The translations under genes and the position numbers were made by a program. 64,000 bases of DNA from Bacteroidota bacterium (lineage in GTDB: Bacteria > Bacteroidota > Bacteroidia > Chitinophagales > Saprospiraceae), in the NCBI GenBank assembly GCA_017857395.1, contig JAFMDF010000004.1, positions 1 through 64,000 on the forward strand. Reading direction: 5' to 3'. The notes under the pieces are model-generated. The model searched no databases, was not told the DNA's origin, and worked only from the letters and a program-made list of their open reading frames with translations. Below are positions 50,857 through 57,029 of this stretch, piece after piece. Each line of letters opens with the position of its first letter. The stretch's first letter is position 1.

Positions 50857-51960
50857 CTAAATTGAGCCAGCAGGTTTATTTATCCACTCCTTCAATTCAT
50901 ATTCATAAGTCGTCAAACCATCTTGATGAATATTTAAGAGCATATCTCCAAAAGCATTAACCTCTAAAATATAGGGAATTCCCTTGGCAGAAATAGCCAC
51001 ATCCACCCCTGCATAAAATAAACCTCCGATAGCATTAACTGCTTTAATTGCAAGTGTTTTAGCTGCTTGGATTAGTGCTGCGCCCCATGCTTGTTTGACT
51101 ATTTCAACCTGTCCTTTTTCGTTACCCAAATGTAAGTTCGTAATAAAATGTTTACTCATTCTAGGGACGATAAAGGCAGCTTTTCCATTAATAACCAAAA
51201 TTCTAAAATCAACACTTTTTTCCTGAAAAGTCTTCTTTCGAATCCATTCTTCAACCATTAAATCACTCGGTAGCATTTTATTGATAATTGTTTTAATTTG
51301 AGTCAGCGAATGGTACTTTTGTAATCGTAAATTATTATACAATTTTCCTCTTTTTAATTGAATCGTCGTATACAACATTTGTTTACCATTCGCTTGTCTA
51401 AATGCCATTACTCCTGAGGCGGAAGAACCGTGATAAGGTTTGATAAAAACTTGGTGAATTTTTTCTTTTTGTAGCTTTTCAATTAATGCATCATAACTCG
51501 CCACTCTTGCTAGGATAATTTTAGGCGTTTGTATTCCTTGTTCGTTCAATAGCTGTTGACATTTCAATTTATGGAAAGCTAATTGAATGGAGGCTGGTGA
51601 ATTTATGGGTTGTAATAATGGGTTTTCACCAATAAAATCAGCTATTCGTTGCAAGATTTTACACCAGCCTCGATACCAGTAAGGATTAGGATAAATTAAT
51701 CCTTTTTCAAAAACTAATTCTTCTGAATGCGGGCAATCGCCTATCTTTAAAATGCTTTTCCACAGGTCAAAATTTTCTCCAGTAGAAGTAATTCTTAAGG
51801 CAGTTGGTACCGTAATCTTCGGCAAAGTATCTGTTATGATTTGCTGATAAGTCAGTAAATTAGCTGATATTTCTTTTTGCTGTAAAGCCTTATTCCAAAA
51901 CTGTACTCTTCTAGAATCAGTTGCACCAATGGTTAAGAATTGTTTCTTTTGGATTTTCAT
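50857..51960 (-). CDS. STM4014 family ATP-grasp protein
   Basis: This 367-residue protein begins with a Rossmann-like segment (FLTIGATDSRRVQFWNKAL) and continues into an ATP-grasp fold. IHQVFIKPYHGSSASGVMAF supplies the ATP-binding lysine and glycine loop, LMVEEWIRKK and VDFRILVINGKAAFIVPRMS the central strands, and GVDVAISAKGIPYILEVNAF the metal-binding ExN site. It would join a carboxylate to an amine or thiol using ATP. Its ATG directly follows the stop of the STM4015-like gene, so translation is probably coupled. It is the last gene of the cluster. Family assignment is from memory of the Salmonella STM4014 family; the substrate is unknown. Confidence 0.85.
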   Translation of the reverse strand: MKIQKKQFLTIGATDSRRVQFWNKALQQKEISANLLTYQQIITDTLPKITVPTALRITSTGENFDLWKSILKIGDCPHSEELVFEKGLIYPNPYWYRGWCKILQRIADFIGENPLLQPINSPASIQLAFHKLKCQQLLNEQGIQTPKIILARVASYDALIEKLQKEKIHQVFIKPYHGSSASGVMAFRQANGKQMLYTTIQLKRGKLYNNLRLQKYHSLTQIKTIINKMLPSDLMVEEWIRKKTFQEKSVDFRILVINGKAAFIVPRMSKHFITNLHLGNEKGQVEIVKQAWGAALIQAAKTLAIKAVNAIGGLFYAGVDVAISAKGIPYILEVNAFGDMLLNIHQDGLTTYEYELKEWINKPAGSI

Positions 51961-53091
51961 TTATTCGCCAATTTCTACATAATAATAAACTTCATCATCG
52001 TATTCATCCGCTTCTTCTGCATCTCTTAAATTAATATTTTGAGTAGCAAATTTTTCTTTTAATTGTTTTTGCCATTTATCAGAAATAAAATGGTATCGAC
52101 AATTGATATGCTTCAATTCCAATAAAGCATCATTATTATATAAAGCTTCTGCTCCTTTATCGGTTAAAGTCCCCATTGATAAATCTAAGGTCTCGATAGT
52201 TTTTAGAATACTTGCTTCTTGTAATGCTGCTGCCAAATCATTTTGCAGATGATAATTTTTTAAACCTAAGTATTTTAAATTAGGATAGTTTCCATTTATA
52301 ATGGGTGTTAAATCTTCAGGCTTAATAGTACAACCATAATCATCCGTTCCTAACCAAATTTCTAAATGTTCTAAATTTTCCAAATTGGATTCGACAATAT
52401 CTGAGATAACTTCACTATTTAACCCGCCTGTTTCTATGATGAGATTTTTTAAATTAGGTAAGTCAATTTTTCCTAATTTCAGACTTTCTCCACCTCGCAC
52501 ACCAAAGGTTTCTAGTGCGGGAAAATGTTGATAAAAGTTAGTATAATTAGCTTGCACAATCCAAGACATCTCACATTCTTCGGAATCCATATCTCCAATG
52601 AATAAATGTTTGAGTCCAGAGAAAGTATCTTTTAATTCAACTAATTTATCGAGTATTTGCGTAGAAATTGGGTCATGCGCATCTTGCCAAGCACCAATTA
52701 CTAAAGTATCCATTTCTCCAATATTAGGTTGCTTAGCTAACTTGTCTAGCTTGTTGACAACTTTCAATTTTTCATCATAGCCAGATAATACTTTAACTGC
52801 TGTTGCTGGATTCATAGTCGAACCAAAATCTGTGACTGGCTTGCCTACCAAGGTATAACTATCTCTAACAATATGTGATTTGGCAGTTGCTTCTATATAC
52901 CCCTTTCCTTTTTTTACTCGGATTAGTTTTTGCGCATCTTTAAGTGCTTTGGCTTCATCTGCAAAGACCTTGGTTTTGGAGGTTCCATTTGCTCCCACTC
53001 GACCATAAGTTACGGTGTGTTCGTTACCTGTTACGGTAATCCTCCAGAATTTATTACTGTTGTGGTCTTGGTAAATTAATTCAGCTTTCAT
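51961..53091 (-). CDS. WGR domain plus STM4015-family leucine-rich repeat protein
   Basis: This 376-residue protein has an N-terminal WGR domain at about residues 1-75 (FWRITVTGNEHTVTYGRVGA, KLIRVKKGKGYIE). An STM4015-type leucine-rich repeat domain follows at about 80-355 (LKHLFIGDMDSEECEMSWI, FPALETFGVRGGESLKL, LENLEHLEIWLGTDDYG). WGR domains bind nucleic acids or DNA breaks in PARPs but are also found in MolR-like bacterial proteins of unclear role. The LRR suggests a protein-binding or substrate role in the cluster. Its stop codon abuts the ATG of the ATP-grasp gene. An acidic tail ends the protein. Confidence 0.85.
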   Translation of the reverse strand: MKAELIYQDHNSNKFWRITVTGNEHTVTYGRVGANGTSKTKVFADEAKALKDAQKLIRVKKGKGYIEATAKSHIVRDSYTLVGKPVTDFGSTMNPATAVKVLSGYDEKLKVVNKLDKLAKQPNIGEMDTLVIGAWQDAHDPISTQILDKLVELKDTFSGLKHLFIGDMDSEECEMSWIVQANYTNFYQHFPALETFGVRGGESLKLGKIDLPNLKNLIIETGGLNSEVISDIVESNLENLEHLEIWLGTDDYGCTIKPEDLTPIINGNYPNLKYLGLKNYHLQNDLAAALQEASILKTIETLDLSMGTLTDKGAEALYNNDALLELKHINCRYHFISDKWQKQLKEKFATQNINLRDAEEADEYDDEVYYYVEIGE

Positions 53092-53208: not shown

Positions 53209-54066
53209 TTATTTAGTTGCTAAAGAAATTCGCTCTAAAATTCTATCTCCATAGGTATTTTGTAAATCGAGTTCTTTTAAATTCAAGTAACCAATATAGC
53301 AGCGACAATGCGTATTGCTACAGCTAGATGGTTTTAAAATTTCGGATAATTGCTGTTCATAAATATTACCTAGTTTACTTTTAATGAAATGACAACGATA
53401 AATATTTCCTGCTCCGTCAATAGACAAACTTGATTCACCAGCAAAACAAGCCTTTCCTTGAGTTTCATAAACCGTGTTGTTCAAATTGAATAAAGGGTCA
53501 ATTTTATTTAAAAAAGCAATGTCTTCCTTCGTGTAATAATTAGGCACTCGTTTATAAGCATTCACCCAGACATAAACGGATTTCGGTAAACTATCTCGTA
53601 ATTGTTGTGCTTCTGAAAAATGTGCTGTTTTACCAACGATGCCTACACTAAATTTAATATTTAAGGTGATTAGTTGCTGACATTTCTCTACAAATTGTGC
53701 CATCTTTATTTCTGTCGGATGGTACGTCGTCCATAGTGCGACTTTAGATTTGTTCGTCTTTTCTAACCATGCTAATCGACTAGATAAATTCGTTTGGATA
53801 GCGACCTTTTTTACATTAGGTAATTGACTTAATCCAATAATAGCTGCTTGATAATAATTACGAATTAAAGCTTCTCCCCAAGGCGTAAATAAAATGCTAA
53901 TAGTATAAGGCTGTTGACTAACCCAATCGACAAATTTATCAAGGCAAGCTTTATCATAAAGCAATTCTTTTCTCGTATTTTTCTTTTTAGCAAAAGGGCA
54001 GTAGTGGCAATCGTAATTGCAACTTTCTAAAGGACCTCGATATAGTATGTTAAGGACTGGTTTCAT
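53209..54066 (-). CDS. STM4011 family radical SAM protein
   Basis: This 285-residue radical SAM enzyme has its 4Fe-4S ligands at CNYDCHYCPFAKK near residues 17-29 and a GE-type motif in FTPWGEALIRNYY near 60. The C-terminus carries extra cysteines (KACFAGESSLSIDGAGNIYR, then C, and a CSNTHCRC cluster), a SPASM-like auxiliary-cluster pattern found in enzymes that modify peptides or proteins. It follows the STM4012-like gene by 53 bases. The target is unknown; a cluster-encoded protein such as the LRR protein is possible but unproven. Confidence 0.88.
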   Translation of the reverse strand: MKPVLNILYRGPLESCNYDCHYCPFAKKKNTRKELLYDKACLDKFVDWVSQQPYTISILFTPWGEALIRNYYQAAIIGLSQLPNVKKVAIQTNLSSRLAWLEKTNKSKVALWTTYHPTEIKMAQFVEKCQQLITLNIKFSVGIVGKTAHFSEAQQLRDSLPKSVYVWVNAYKRVPNYYTKEDIAFLNKIDPLFNLNNTVYETQGKACFAGESSLSIDGAGNIYRCHFIKSKLGNIYEQQLSEILKPSSCSNTHCRCYIGYLNLKELDLQNTYGDRILERISLATK

Positions 54067-54119: not shown

Positions 54120-55454
54120 TCAACTACTCAATTCAAAATTTTGCATTAAATCTCTAACATTTTCAGAATAAAACATAGGCCCAATAGCATCTTCCATTTC
54201 CAGGCCTGATTCACTTAATTGTAAATACGCTCCTTTCCATACCAACCATTTTTTATTCAATAATTCTTGTACAACTGGTAAAGAGAGACAATCTTTTCCA
54301 AACTGCTGCTTGAATATTACTGGATATAAAACTCCTCCATCAATCAAAGATTTAATTAGAAAGCGATTCATTTGCTCTGCTTCATTCAGATAAAACCCAT
54401 AATCAACGGTATTAAAAGCTTCTTTTAAACTATATGCATGAATAATCGCTTTGGTCGCCTTTCGAGTAACGGCGTAATTGGTACTATAATGCAATTGATT
54501 CGTATAAGAACGAGCACCTGCCCCAATCCCAATCATCCCATTTGTGGTCGCTGAATAATTATTGGTAATTACTGGTACATCCCCTTTTCTAAAACAACGC
54601 ATAGAAGTTTGGACATAGCCGCTGTTTTTCAAGAAGTCTCTACCAATTCTATACAATTTTAAGCGGTTATCTTCGGCAGATTGTTGCATTTTACTCAACC
54701 CTGTTAAAGGACGAGTATAAAGTGGATAAAGAAAAATTTCCGTTGGTTCGTAAGCAAGGGTGTTTTCCAAAGAATACAACCAAGAAGCTTTTGTTTGGGA
54801 GTGAATGCCGTAAATCAAATCTAAATTGAACTCTGGTACAGCAGATTTTTTTATTAAATCTACTGCTTTCTGTACTTCTATTGGAGATTGCGGGCGACCC
54901 AATAATTTTGTTTCTGAAGCTAGCCAAGATTGAACACCCATACTAATTCGATTGATGCCATAAGCTTCGATTAATCGAATTTTTTCAGCGGTAATTGATT
55001 TTGGTGAGGCTTCAATACTGCCATATTTTAATTGCGTATTTACCCCTAAATCATCTTTGAAAATAGACAACATTCGGGCTAATTCTGGTGGAGATAAGAA
55101 AGTTGGCGTGCCGCCGCCAATAGCGTATTCTTCAAAATTAGTTGGTGCGATGGTTTCCTTGTAAATTCTTGCTTCTCTTTGAAGCGCATCTAAATATTCC
55201 CCTACACCTCCTTTAGGATTGGCAATGGTAAATAGATTACAAAACCCGCAGCGCATCTCACAAAAAGGGATATGTAGATAAGCAAATAAATTACTCGTAT
55301 CTTCTTTTTGCCAAGCCGTTTTTAGTGCAATCGGCTTTTCTAAAGATTGATAAGTATGCTTATGCGGATAACTATAAGTATACTGTTCATAAACATTTAA
55401 TTTGGTTGTTGCTGCTATCATATTATTGATTGGGTTGCTGGTATTTAATTTCAA
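54120..55454 (-). CDS. STM4012 family radical SAM protein (HemW-like)
   Basis: This 444-residue protein resembles oxygen-independent coproporphyrinogen oxidase/HemW. The cluster ligands are in HIPFCEMRCGFCNLF near residues 62-76, GGGTPTFLSPPELA near 113 and NRISMGVQSWLASETKLLGR near 169. HemW members usually bind heme or act on tetrapyrroles, but this family is separate and tied to the STM4011-4015 neighbourhood. The start is a TTG that overlaps the stop of the broken sulfatase gene (TTGA); an ATG 11 codons on is an alternative. Radical chemistry is expected, with unknown substrate. Confidence 0.9.
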   Translation of the reverse strand: MKLNTSNPINNMIAATTKLNVYEQYTYSYPHKHTYQSLEKPIALKTAWQKEDTSNLFAYLHIPFCEMRCGFCNLFTIANPKGGVGEYLDALQREARIYKETIAPTNFEEYAIGGGTPTFLSPPELARMLSIFKDDLGVNTQLKYGSIEASPKSITAEKIRLIEAYGINRISMGVQSWLASETKLLGRPQSPIEVQKAVDLIKKSAVPEFNLDLIYGIHSQTKASWLYSLENTLAYEPTEIFLYPLYTRPLTGLSKMQQSAEDNRLKLYRIGRDFLKNSGYVQTSMRCFRKGDVPVITNNYSATTNGMIGIGAGARSYTNQLHYSTNYAVTRKATKAIIHAYSLKEAFNTVDYGFYLNEAEQMNRFLIKSLIDGGVLYPVIFKQQFGKDCLSLPVVQELLNKKWLVWKGAYLQLSESGLEMEDAIGPMFYSENVRDLMQNFELSS

Positions 55455-56370
55455 ATCTCAAAATGTACGTAAGGAACTTCCATTACCGTCGAATGCCCAT
55501 TTCGATGTCCCCAATGTCCGTCTTCTCCATAAGCAGTTCCATGGTCGCTACAAATAATAGAAAAACAAGGCCCTTTCTTTAATAACGCTTCCATCAAAAT
55601 AGGCAATTGACTGTCAACATATCTTAATGCAGCAGCATGACTTTTTGTATACTCTGAACGGTCAAGTATTTTGATTTTAAATCCAAGATTTATGCTTGCA
55701 AAACGTTAGTTTTAACATTGATAATCAAATAGTTATATTTTTGTTAAGATTTTCTTAACAATTCACAAAACTTGACCGTTTCTAGTATATCATCAAAATT
55801 CGCTGTTTTACTATAAAAATAATTAGGTTGATGAATAGCCGAGACATTGATAAATAAACAAAATTTACGAGTTTCTTTTGCTACCCAGTTTGCTGCCAAT
55901 TTAAATTGATATTCCGTGGATTTCTTTTCTGTAACACCTGTTGCTACTGCCCAATAGCTTTCTTCAAAAAGACTAGGAAACTCTTGGCTTATTTTATTTT
56001 GTTTATTAAAAAATCCTACGCCTCCAATACAATTAGTCGCATAACCTCTATTACGCAAAGCGGTTATCAAATCATTTTCTTCAAAAGTAAAAGTGTCTAT
56101 TGCGGTGGATTCACTTCCATGAAAAGTAGTGGCAAATAATCTAGGCGTTATTTTAGTACCAATTTTGGTGGGTAAAAAACCTGCAAAAAAGGCTTTATGA
56201 GAAGGATAGGTAAAAGAACCTGGTGAATATCTTTTTTCCCAACCTGTACTCGGTAAATATTTTTGAAAATTTGGCAACTTTCCTTGTAAAAATTGCTCCT
56301 GTGCAACATCATATCGCAAGGAATCCAATACCATAAATAAAATATTCGATTGACCAATTATTGCTTTCAT
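55451..56370 (-). pseudogene. STM4013/SEN3800 family sulfatase-like hydrolase, interrupted by a MITE
   Basis: The N-terminal part (from the ATG at 56370) shows an alkaline-phosphatase/sulfatase fold: ILFMVLDSLRYDVAQ supplies the metal aspartate and SFTYPSHKAFFAGFLP the nucleophile region. The frame then stops at 55744 inside an inserted element. The C-terminal part is intact at 55451-55649 with SHAAALRYVDSQLP and CSDHGTAYGEDGHWGHRNGH, the metal-binding DH and HxxxGH. Deleting 140 bases (element plus one TA) gives ...NFDDTKSHAAALRYV in frame and a protein of about 259 residues. The ATG overlaps the TGA of the upstream HAD gene by one base. As read, no full-length protein can be made. Confidence 0.88.
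55650..55787. mobile_element. 138-bp MITE with TA target duplication inside the STM4013-like gene
   Basis: The ends read TACTCTGAACGGTCAAG and, inverted, TACTAGAAACGGTCAAG, then TTTTG on both sides with small offsets, giving about 25-base terminal inverted repeats. Each end is flanked by TA (55648-55649 and 55788-55789). The interior has no coding capacity but an inner hairpin (TTGTTAAGATTTTCTTAACA). TA target choice points to an IS630/Tc1-mariner-type transposase acting in trans. Precise removal restores the host reading frame. Confidence 0.82.
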
Positions 56371-57029
56371 CACTTCCATTTATTTAATACGCTATTCAGC
56401 ATAGTTAAGGAAGTTATTTGAGCCACTTTTTTATGATTGATTGGTTGAGGATTTTTTGTCAAATGAATGGCATACCAACCTGCATTTTTAGCTCCTAAAA
56501 TATCGTTTTCCCAATGGTCGCCAATCATGCAAAAAGTAGTAGCTGTTTTAAACGATTGTTCCACCAATTCAAACGCCCTTAACTCAGGTTTTTTATAACC
56601 TAGTTTTTCTGAAATGAAAATATGACTAGTTGGAAAAAATTGATTTAAACCTGTTTGAGCAATTTTTTTGGATTGATTGTCTACTCCACCATTGGTAAAT
56701 AAGATGCATTCATACTCTTTTTGTAAAGTTGATAAGACCCTATTAGTTGCCTTATTAATCCTCACAAAATTGCCAATATTTTTGCTAATTAATGACCAGA
56801 TTGTTGTTGCTTTGGTAGGAATTGCTAGGAAGGTTTGTAGCCATTTACAAAAGGGAATTCTATCGGAGTGTCCTTGTTCGTCTTGCTGTTCGATAGCTAC
56901 CCTTTGCGAAGTAGATAATTGTAATTTAAAAAGATGCTCAATACAATCCAACATCGCTTGGTCTCGAAATAGAAGGGTATTATCTAAATCAAAAACAAGT
57001 TTAATTTTTTGGGTATTAAGTATATTCAA
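56370..57029 (-). CDS. HAD family hydrolase, first gene of the STM4011-4015 cluster
   Basis: This 219-residue protein has the HAD nucleophile motif VFDLDNTLLFRD at residues 12-23, the motif II region ILFTNGG near 109, the motif III lysine in GYKKPELRAF near 144 and the motif IV acids GDHWENDILG near 170. It is probably a phosphatase of the YjjG/NagD-like subclass. Its TGA overlaps the ATG of the sulfatase-like gene (TGATG), indicating translational coupling and a shared role. The start is TTG. Confidence 0.85.
   Translation of the reverse strand: MNILNTQKIKLVFDLDNTLLFRDQAMLDCIEHLFKLQLSTSQRVAIEQQDEQGHSDRIPFCKWLQTFLAIPTKATTIWSLISKNIGNFVRINKATNRVLSTLQKEYECILFTNGGVDNQSKKIAQTGLNQFFPTSHIFISEKLGYKKPELRAFELVEQSFKTATTFCMIGDHWENDILGAKNAGWYAIHLTKNPQPINHKKVAQITSLTMLNSVLNKWK

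Follow-up and report, generated by a model that had tools for sequence, protein, structure and literature searches.

A WGR domain on an STM4015-family leucine-rich repeat protein, and a near-invariant C-terminal glutamate beside a LysX/RimK-fold ligase gene

Introduction

Gene clusters of the STM4011-STM4015 type, whose gene names are placeholders, are found in Salmonella, Streptomyces, Paenibacillus, Bacteroides, Planctomycetota and other bacteria. One such cluster is present in a 64,000-nucleotide stretch of contig JAFMDF010000004.1 of a Saprospiraceae genome (positions 1 to 64,000), which as a whole is referred to here as the window. Its STM4015 gene encodes a leucine-rich repeat (LRR) protein that begins with a WGR domain, and the initial annotation had suggested that this fusion either links the radical-SAM pathway of the cluster to DNA or RNA, or employs WGR as a protein-binding module. 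What does a WGR domain do on such a protein, and what is the LRR protein itself for? The in silico analyses presented here show that the fusion is real, conserved and already present in a solved structure, and that the WGR domain is optional. Of greater interest is the near-invariant glutamate at the C-terminus of STM4015, encoded beside a ligase with a LysX/RimK-type fold, and this combination provides a specific and cheaply testable chemical hypothesis for an unassigned cluster.

Results

Organization of the cluster and evidence for the fusion

The gene had been described as a WGR domain fused to an STM4015 LRR protein at positions 51961-53091, and both the names and the coordinates are right: the 376-aa ORF contains the two domain matches (Table 1). 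The WGR profile PF05406 scored 66.4 bits (cut-off 22) and the STM4015 profile NF038076 scored 293.9 bits (cut-off 275). The AlphaFold model of the STM4015 protein has an LRR fold, with PDB entry 2RA8 as its best structural match. The radical-SAM cluster setting was likewise borne out. The genes of STM4011, STM4012, STM4013 and a HAD-family hydrolase are located upstream of the fusion gene on the same strand, STM4014 starts at the base right after the STM4015 stop codon, and the STM4011, STM4012, STM4013 and STM4014 neighbours all score over their curated cut-offs. A relative of the HAD hydrolase is present in 22 of 88 loci, and the gene set of the cluster is alike in loci with and without WGR.

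Table 1. Positions of the cluster genes and of features within them (window coordinates).
Feature	Position	Strand	Evidence and remarks
WGR-STM4015 gene	51961..53091	(-)	376 aa, ATG start; ORF and domain matches
WGR domain, residues 6-69, motif Y-G-R	52885..53076	(-)	PF05406, E 2.5e-18
STM4015 LRR core and tail, residues 108-376	51964..52770	(-)	NF038076, E 1e-87; model mean pLDDT 92.1
Tail YYYVEIGE; last Glu codon 51964-51966	51964..51987	(-)	C-terminal Glu in 110/111 STM4015 proteins
STM4014, RimK/LysX-like ATP-grasp ligase	50857..51960	(-)	NF038074, 291.3 bits, cut-off 175; predicted ligase
STM4011, radical SAM/SPASM protein	53209..54066	(-)	NF038073, 387.9 bits, cut-off 200; SPASM match
STM4012, HemN/HemW-like radical SAM protein	54120..55454	(-)	NF006067, 502.4 bits, cut-off 380
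STM4013 hydrolase gene, interrupted	55451..56379	(-)	NF038075, 255.6 bits, cut-off 250; lower gene end judged by eye
MITE-like short multicopy insertion element in STM4013	55648..55789	(.)	Ends TATACT...AGTATA; boundaries from 10 copies
HAD-family hydrolase, recurrent cluster partner	56370..57029	(-)	PF13419, E 1.8e-12

The fusion is not an artefact of assembly or chance, because the same order of WGR followed by STM4015 is found in another genome (G088, locus L004), in two genomes of the window's own family (G397 and G399), in 23 of the 80 best scanned loci, and in 2RA8. The latter is Q64V53_BACFR of Bacteroides fragilis, an uncharacterised protein whose structure was released by structural genomics in 2007. 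It matches residues 1-370 of the window protein (phmmer, E 1.9e-58; profile, E 1.4e-134) and superimposes on the model with a VIA Z of 31.8 (339 aligned residues, rmsd 5.5, 36% identical), in an alignment that reaches the last residue of the model. 2RA8 thus resembles the window protein over its full length, with WGR, STM4015 LRR and tail, and differs from it in sequence (36% identity), for instance in the tail, which is YSFPMITE in the B. fragilis locus L062 and YYYVEIGE here. The architecture is therefore not new, since a full-length homologue has a solved structure; a relative in B. finegoldii is publicly annotated as an STM4015 family protein. In the open-licence literature, we found no paper on the WGR-STM4015 fusion, none naming 2RA8, none that combines a WGR domain, a leucine-rich repeat and radical SAM, and none that combines a leucine-rich repeat, ATP-grasp, radical SAM and a gene cluster. 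Searches of the same literature for STM4011-STM4015 and SEN3800 gave two papers, in each of which a gene table mentions STM4013 or STM4015 a single time.

WGR and LRR are also joined in one protein in Leptospira, for example in LIC_11051 (excerpt of PMC11674859); that protein differs in having 685 aa, and its match to the window protein is limited to the WGR part. Profile NF047464 gives a match at residues 1-72 here, with an E of 6.9e-21 but a score far short of the curated cut-off.

WGR is an optional N-terminal domain of STM4015

A survey of how often STM4015 homologues carry WGR, as the initial annotation had recommended, gave 30 of 111 proteins and 3 of the 17 STM4015-containing genomes in the phylum draws. 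The 111 proteins comprise a set of 90 (80 loci from a genome scan, the window, L004 and eight plasmid-borne proteins) and 21 proteins from the genome draws. A WGR model built from five of the proteins matches 26 of the 90. Of these, 23 are among the scanned loci, which are the best 80 of 573 relatives of a WGR-bearing query, so that 23/80 overstates the share of WGR.

The phylum draws were counted at matches of at least 269 bits, with the window's own genome and four centre genomes left out, and for three of the draws the counts are among the matches listed, at E up to 1e-30 only. STM4015 was found in 1 of 394 Bacteroidota genomes (with WGR in 1), 7 of 293 Planctomycetota (WGR in 1), 0 of 397 Pseudomonadota, 4 of 197 Actinomycetota (WGR in 0) and 5 of 298 Bacillota (WGR in 1). 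These counts exclude weak LRR matches in 3 genomes of one draw (up to 30 bits) and 26 genomes of another (up to 122 bits); among the excluded matches are a C-terminal fragment in G679, which ends in Glu, and the protein of G542, a distant relative (101.6 bits) that does not. In the window's own family, STM4015 is present in 3 of 99 other genomes, of which two have WGR and one has two DUF1508 copies.

On a tree of the 111 core sequences (109 of them different), the distribution of WGR needs at least eight state changes, three of which are forced by starred branches; this is a quick tree, made without a mixture model and with long branches meeting. These changes indicate that WGR is optional at the N-terminus, with more than one gain or loss. 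The domain is carried twice by L030 and L086, both from Planctomycetota.

In four STM4015 proteins of Saprospiraceae/Lewinella, another N-terminal part replaces WGR (L018:4954-6261, L019:2399-3706, L020:9596-10903 and L098:1018-2325). Domain scans of L020 and L098 detected two DUF1508 stretches in each, and L018 and L019 are labelled as DUF1508-type from their like N-termini. In the quick tree, the four group together as a single clade within the group to which the window protein belongs.

We also searched for a stand-alone WGR gene in clusters lacking the fusion. None was present among ORFs of at least 60 aa in the 88 loci, the flanks of which are of very different length: all 25 WGR ORFs are STM4015 ORFs.

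The WGR domain and nucleic acids

The WGR domain of the window protein belongs to the same domain family as those of PARP1, PARP2 and PARP3, and the family profile finds the WGR domain of PARP3 (2eoc, E 1.6e-5). It is also net basic, with a charge of +7. Both observations speak for the idea that WGR targets the LRR protein to DNA or RNA, which would connect the radical-SAM pathway with nucleic acid, for example with nucleotide modification or repair. Nevertheless, we consider this very unlikely. Unlike in the PARPs, no catalytic domain was found here, the charge is not conserved, and the Trp of the motif is replaced by Tyr or Phe in all 32 WGR domains of the family, which read YGK, YGR or FGR. 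For comparison, W138, G139 and R140 are conserved in the WGR domain of PARP2 (excerpt of PMC7608914). The tyrosine alone does not rule out DNA binding, because a WGR-PARP-like protein of the window's own genome has YGR as well; this protein (L002:1309-2682) has a WGR match and looks like a WGR-PARP, its PARP part having been recognised by eye.

The net charge varies from -3 to +7 over the 32 domains, and of six Bacteroides proteins one has -3 and the others lie between -1 and +2; by this crude measure, a basic domain is thus not a trait of the family. Moreover, 14 of the 17 STM4015 genomes of the phylum draws lack WGR, near kin have DUF1508 where WGR would sit, and loci with and without WGR share the same cluster. 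The proposed link of the pathway to DNA or RNA was consequently not upheld, and a nucleic-acid role of the WGR domain, judged from sequence, is possible but unsupported. The other suggestion made at the outset, that WGR is a putative protein-binding module, fits these data better than a link to DNA or RNA.

A role in defence was considered as well and rejected: PADLOC, applied to six proteins with STM4013 excluded, gave only weak and partial matches, the best of which were STM4012 (E 1.9e-6) and WGR (E 6.4e-4).

STM4015 proteins end in glutamate

The last residue of STM4015 is Glu in 10 of 10 proteins of a first alignment, in 89 of the set of 90 and in 110 of 111, whether the protein has WGR, DUF1508 or neither. 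Three second copies of STM4015 outside the 111 (in L056, L087 and L089) also terminate in Glu. Because the sequences are related, these counts are not independent events, even though the 111 proteins have 106 different last-30 stretches, and the spread over phyla is the stronger argument. Proteins ending in Glu come from at least 12 phyla, which are Bacteroidota, Planctomycetota, Verrucomicrobiota, Lentisphaerota, Actinomycetota, Bacillota, Pseudomonadota, Cyanobacteriota, Melainabacteria, Deinococcota, Acidobacteriota and Thermodesulfobacteriota.

The glutamate is preceded by an acidic linker and, usually, an aromatic motif: 91 of the 111 tails fit the pattern [YF][VPI]x[VIL][GTSA]E. All 111 have Gly, Thr, Ser or Ala at position -2, where the additional L089 copy has Asn. 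The terminal Glu is retained even in otherwise dissimilar tails, such as WRPILHAE, YSGPMFTE, YYSILLSE and MNAMYTE, and divergent members without the aromatic motif retain the type of the last two residues. As a control, we took 1114 ORFs from the same loci that lie outside the cluster and have a length of at least 250 aa; 3.7% of them end in Glu. The information content of the C-terminal position is 4.23 bits for STM4015 and 0.91, 0.98, 1.26 and 0.72 bits for STM4014, STM4013, STM4012 and STM4011, respectively, in a comparison that includes three STM4014 or STM4012 sequences cut by a contig end.

We also considered the possibility that the overlap with the STM4014 gene forces the glutamate. 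In the 88 loci, the last codon is GAA in 51, GAG in 36 and GTA in one, and all three stop codons are used. The use of both Glu codons and of all three stops rules out this explanation and indicates selection on the residue, at the protein level.

The sole exception is L070, which ends in AVTV and comes from genome G496, in which neither STM4014 nor STM4011 was found. In genome G495 (L029) both are likewise missing from what was found, yet the Glu is kept. As a test of co-loss, these two orphans, from genomes of unstated completeness, contradict each other.

The conservation could also be structural. The tail of the AlphaFold model has a mean pLDDT of 95 for residues 361-370 and 87 for residues 371-376, and together with the 2RA8 alignment, which extends to the last residue, this suggests that the tail is probably ordered. 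The tail might then be a docking or structural element that packs against the LRR or is recognised by a partner, with its carboxylate in a salt bridge, while STM4014 has another substrate and STM4015 is a mere scaffold. LRRs are typical binding scaffolds, the orphan L029 retains its Glu, and the neighbouring DUF6745 protein described below likewise has a fixed C-terminus, with another letter. On the other hand, no other position of the tail is as fixed as the last one, the residues next to which vary, and the nearest solved relatives of the enzyme encoded next door act on a C-terminal Glu (see the next section). We regard this explanation as a serious candidate, although with somewhat less than an even chance of being right.

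In some Actinomycetota, STM4015 is present in two tandem copies (L011:7875-9798, and L146), both of which end in Glu.

A DUF6745 protein adjoins the cluster in 27 of the 88 loci (L027:8827-9765, L042:8241-9281 and 25 others), and in L089 it is fused to LRRs. Its C-terminal residue is Thr in 26 of 27, mostly within [EQ]T (4.09 bits), without an obvious ligase role. STM4015 is hence not alone in having a fixed C-terminus. Because of this terminal Thr, the idea that DUF6745 is another carrier sharing the STM4015 tail was rejected.

STM4014 resembles ligases that act on a C-terminal glutamate

STM4014 is present in 84 of the 88 loci (it was not found in L014, L029, L067 and L070), and in 79 of these 84 it is located directly downstream of STM4015 on the same strand. 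Among the other five, a contig end truncates L016 and L066, a second STM4015 lies in between in L011, a gap of about 350 bases separates the genes in L085, and in L089 STM4014 is upstream, behind another copy of STM4015.

An AlphaFold model of STM4014, based on 48 sequences, has a mean pLDDT of 95.2. Foldseek placed 3vpb, which is ArgX complexed with LysW, first (E 1.7e-13), followed by RimK. In VIA-align the first nine hits are all ArgX, LysX or RimK (Z 24.6-22.6, rmsd 2.8-3.0, 265-276 aligned residues, with the enzymes of these nine being 16-19% identical to STM4014). They are followed by glutathione synthetase (Z 21.7) and D-Ala ligases (Z about 21), and LysX entry 1uc9 is at rank 40 (Z 19.9). 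Since ATP-grasp folds are similar to one another, ArgX, LysX and RimK are ahead of D-Ala ligase by a modest margin. The top solved relatives of the sequence profile are also LysX and RimK-type ligases (1uc8, E 2.3e-6). All 48 STM4014 sequences share residues K131, K174, D320, N335, R253 and R267, and E333 is Glu in 42 and Asp in 6. From general knowledge of the fold, we take K131 and K174 to be nucleotide-binding lysines and D320, E333 and N335 to bind Mg.

LysX loads the gamma-carboxyl of the terminal Glu of LysW. The RimK-like ArgX does likewise, joining a glutamate to the gamma-carboxyl of that same residue (excerpt of PMC4490483), and RimK adds Glu to the C-terminus of RpsF, which is ribosomal protein S6 (excerpt of PMC7343187). 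STM4014 shares the ATP-grasp fold with RimK (VIA Z 23.3-24.2). It is unlike RimK in being encoded beside its presumed partner and in its score of 61.5 bits against rimK_fam (TIGR00768), under the curated cut-off of 143.4; judged by this profile, it falls outside the curated RimK family.

Graspetides are made from a core peptide with a conserved acidic acceptor and Lys/Ser/Thr donor pairs. The graspetide ligase PsnB appears from rank 11 of the Foldseek hits of the STM4014 model, and its complexes with the precursor are among the structural neighbours (7dro, E 2.2e-12; 7drm, E 2.5e-12). STM4015 might accordingly be a RiPP-like precursor, with the LRR as a large leader and tail side chains that the radical-SAM enzymes and the ATP-grasp enzyme would modify, the modified peptide being cut off; the acidic aromatic tail is indeed C-terminal, and STM4011 has a SPASM domain. 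This seems improbable to us, because no side chain deeper in the tail is as conserved as position -1, no recurrent peptidase is named beside the cluster in the products of seven annotated records, and the transporters that adjoin it in some records (L009, L012 and L013) differ.

A carrier-protein hypothesis for the cluster

Taking the domains, the synteny, the near-universal C-terminal Glu, the conserved ATP-grasp residues and the fold similarity together, we infer a ligation onto STM4015, a group attached there, an order of steps and a role for WGR. In this proposal, to which we assign a probability of roughly 0.5, STM4015 would be the protein substrate or carrier of STM4014, the radical-SAM enzymes would act on the attached group, and WGR would be an accessory docking domain. 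STM4014 would use ATP to activate the carboxylate of the C-terminal Glu of STM4015 and couple an amine-bearing small molecule to it, as LysX and ArgX do on LysW and RimK on S6. The radical-SAM enzymes STM4011 and STM4012 would then alter the attached group, or the tail around it, and STM4013, which has a sulfatase fold, and the HAD phosphatase may hydrolyse a phosphate-type or ester bond, either before or at release. The LRR of STM4015 might serve as a recognition scaffold for the enzymes of the cluster, and WGR as a module for docking or assembly at the N-terminus, optional in that some lineages lack it or replace it by DUF1508.

The pair STM4015/STM4014 is similar to LysW with LysX or ArgX in having a C-terminal Glu and an adjacent RimK-like ATP-grasp enzyme of the same fold. 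The LysW lysine synthesis genes encode a kinase, a reductase, an aminotransferase and a hydrolase; in the STM4011-STM4015 cluster, radical-SAM, sulfatase-fold and HAD genes replace these. Furthermore, LysW is a small protein (excerpt of PMC4490483), whereas STM4015 has an LRR fold and a length of about 280 aa or more (376 aa in the window). Not being a small LysW-type protein, STM4015 may act in the manner of LysW without being a LysW itself.

A broader proposal, which we put forward tentatively and with odds well short of even, is that STM4011-STM4015 encodes an uncharacterised carrier-protein pathway, distributed over at least 12 phyla, in which two radical-SAM enzymes would build a small molecule on the C-terminal Glu of an LRR protein. 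Such a pathway would follow a LysW-like logic on an unrelated scaffold, with WGR and DUF1508 as swappable recruiting domains. If true, carrier-protein chemistry would extend to LRR proteins and to radical-SAM tailoring.

Interruption of STM4013 and other variants of the cluster

In the window, STM4013 is interrupted by a MITE-like insert of about 142 bp with inverted ends (TATACTAGAAACGGTCAAG...CTTGACCGTTCAGAGTATA). Only ORF 55744-56379 is intact, and the match to NF038075 spans profile positions 1-196 of 261. The pathway may therefore be impaired in this strain. Among the 40 of 116 candidates that were scored in the same genome, at least 28 copies are identical to the insert across the 135-136 bases searched and 8 match it in part, which points to a recent spread.

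Two other arrangements involve HAD genes: in B. finegoldii (L009:10453-12018), STM4011 is fused to a HAD hydrolase (Hydrolase_3), and in a Salmonella record a Cof-type HAD gene follows STM4011.
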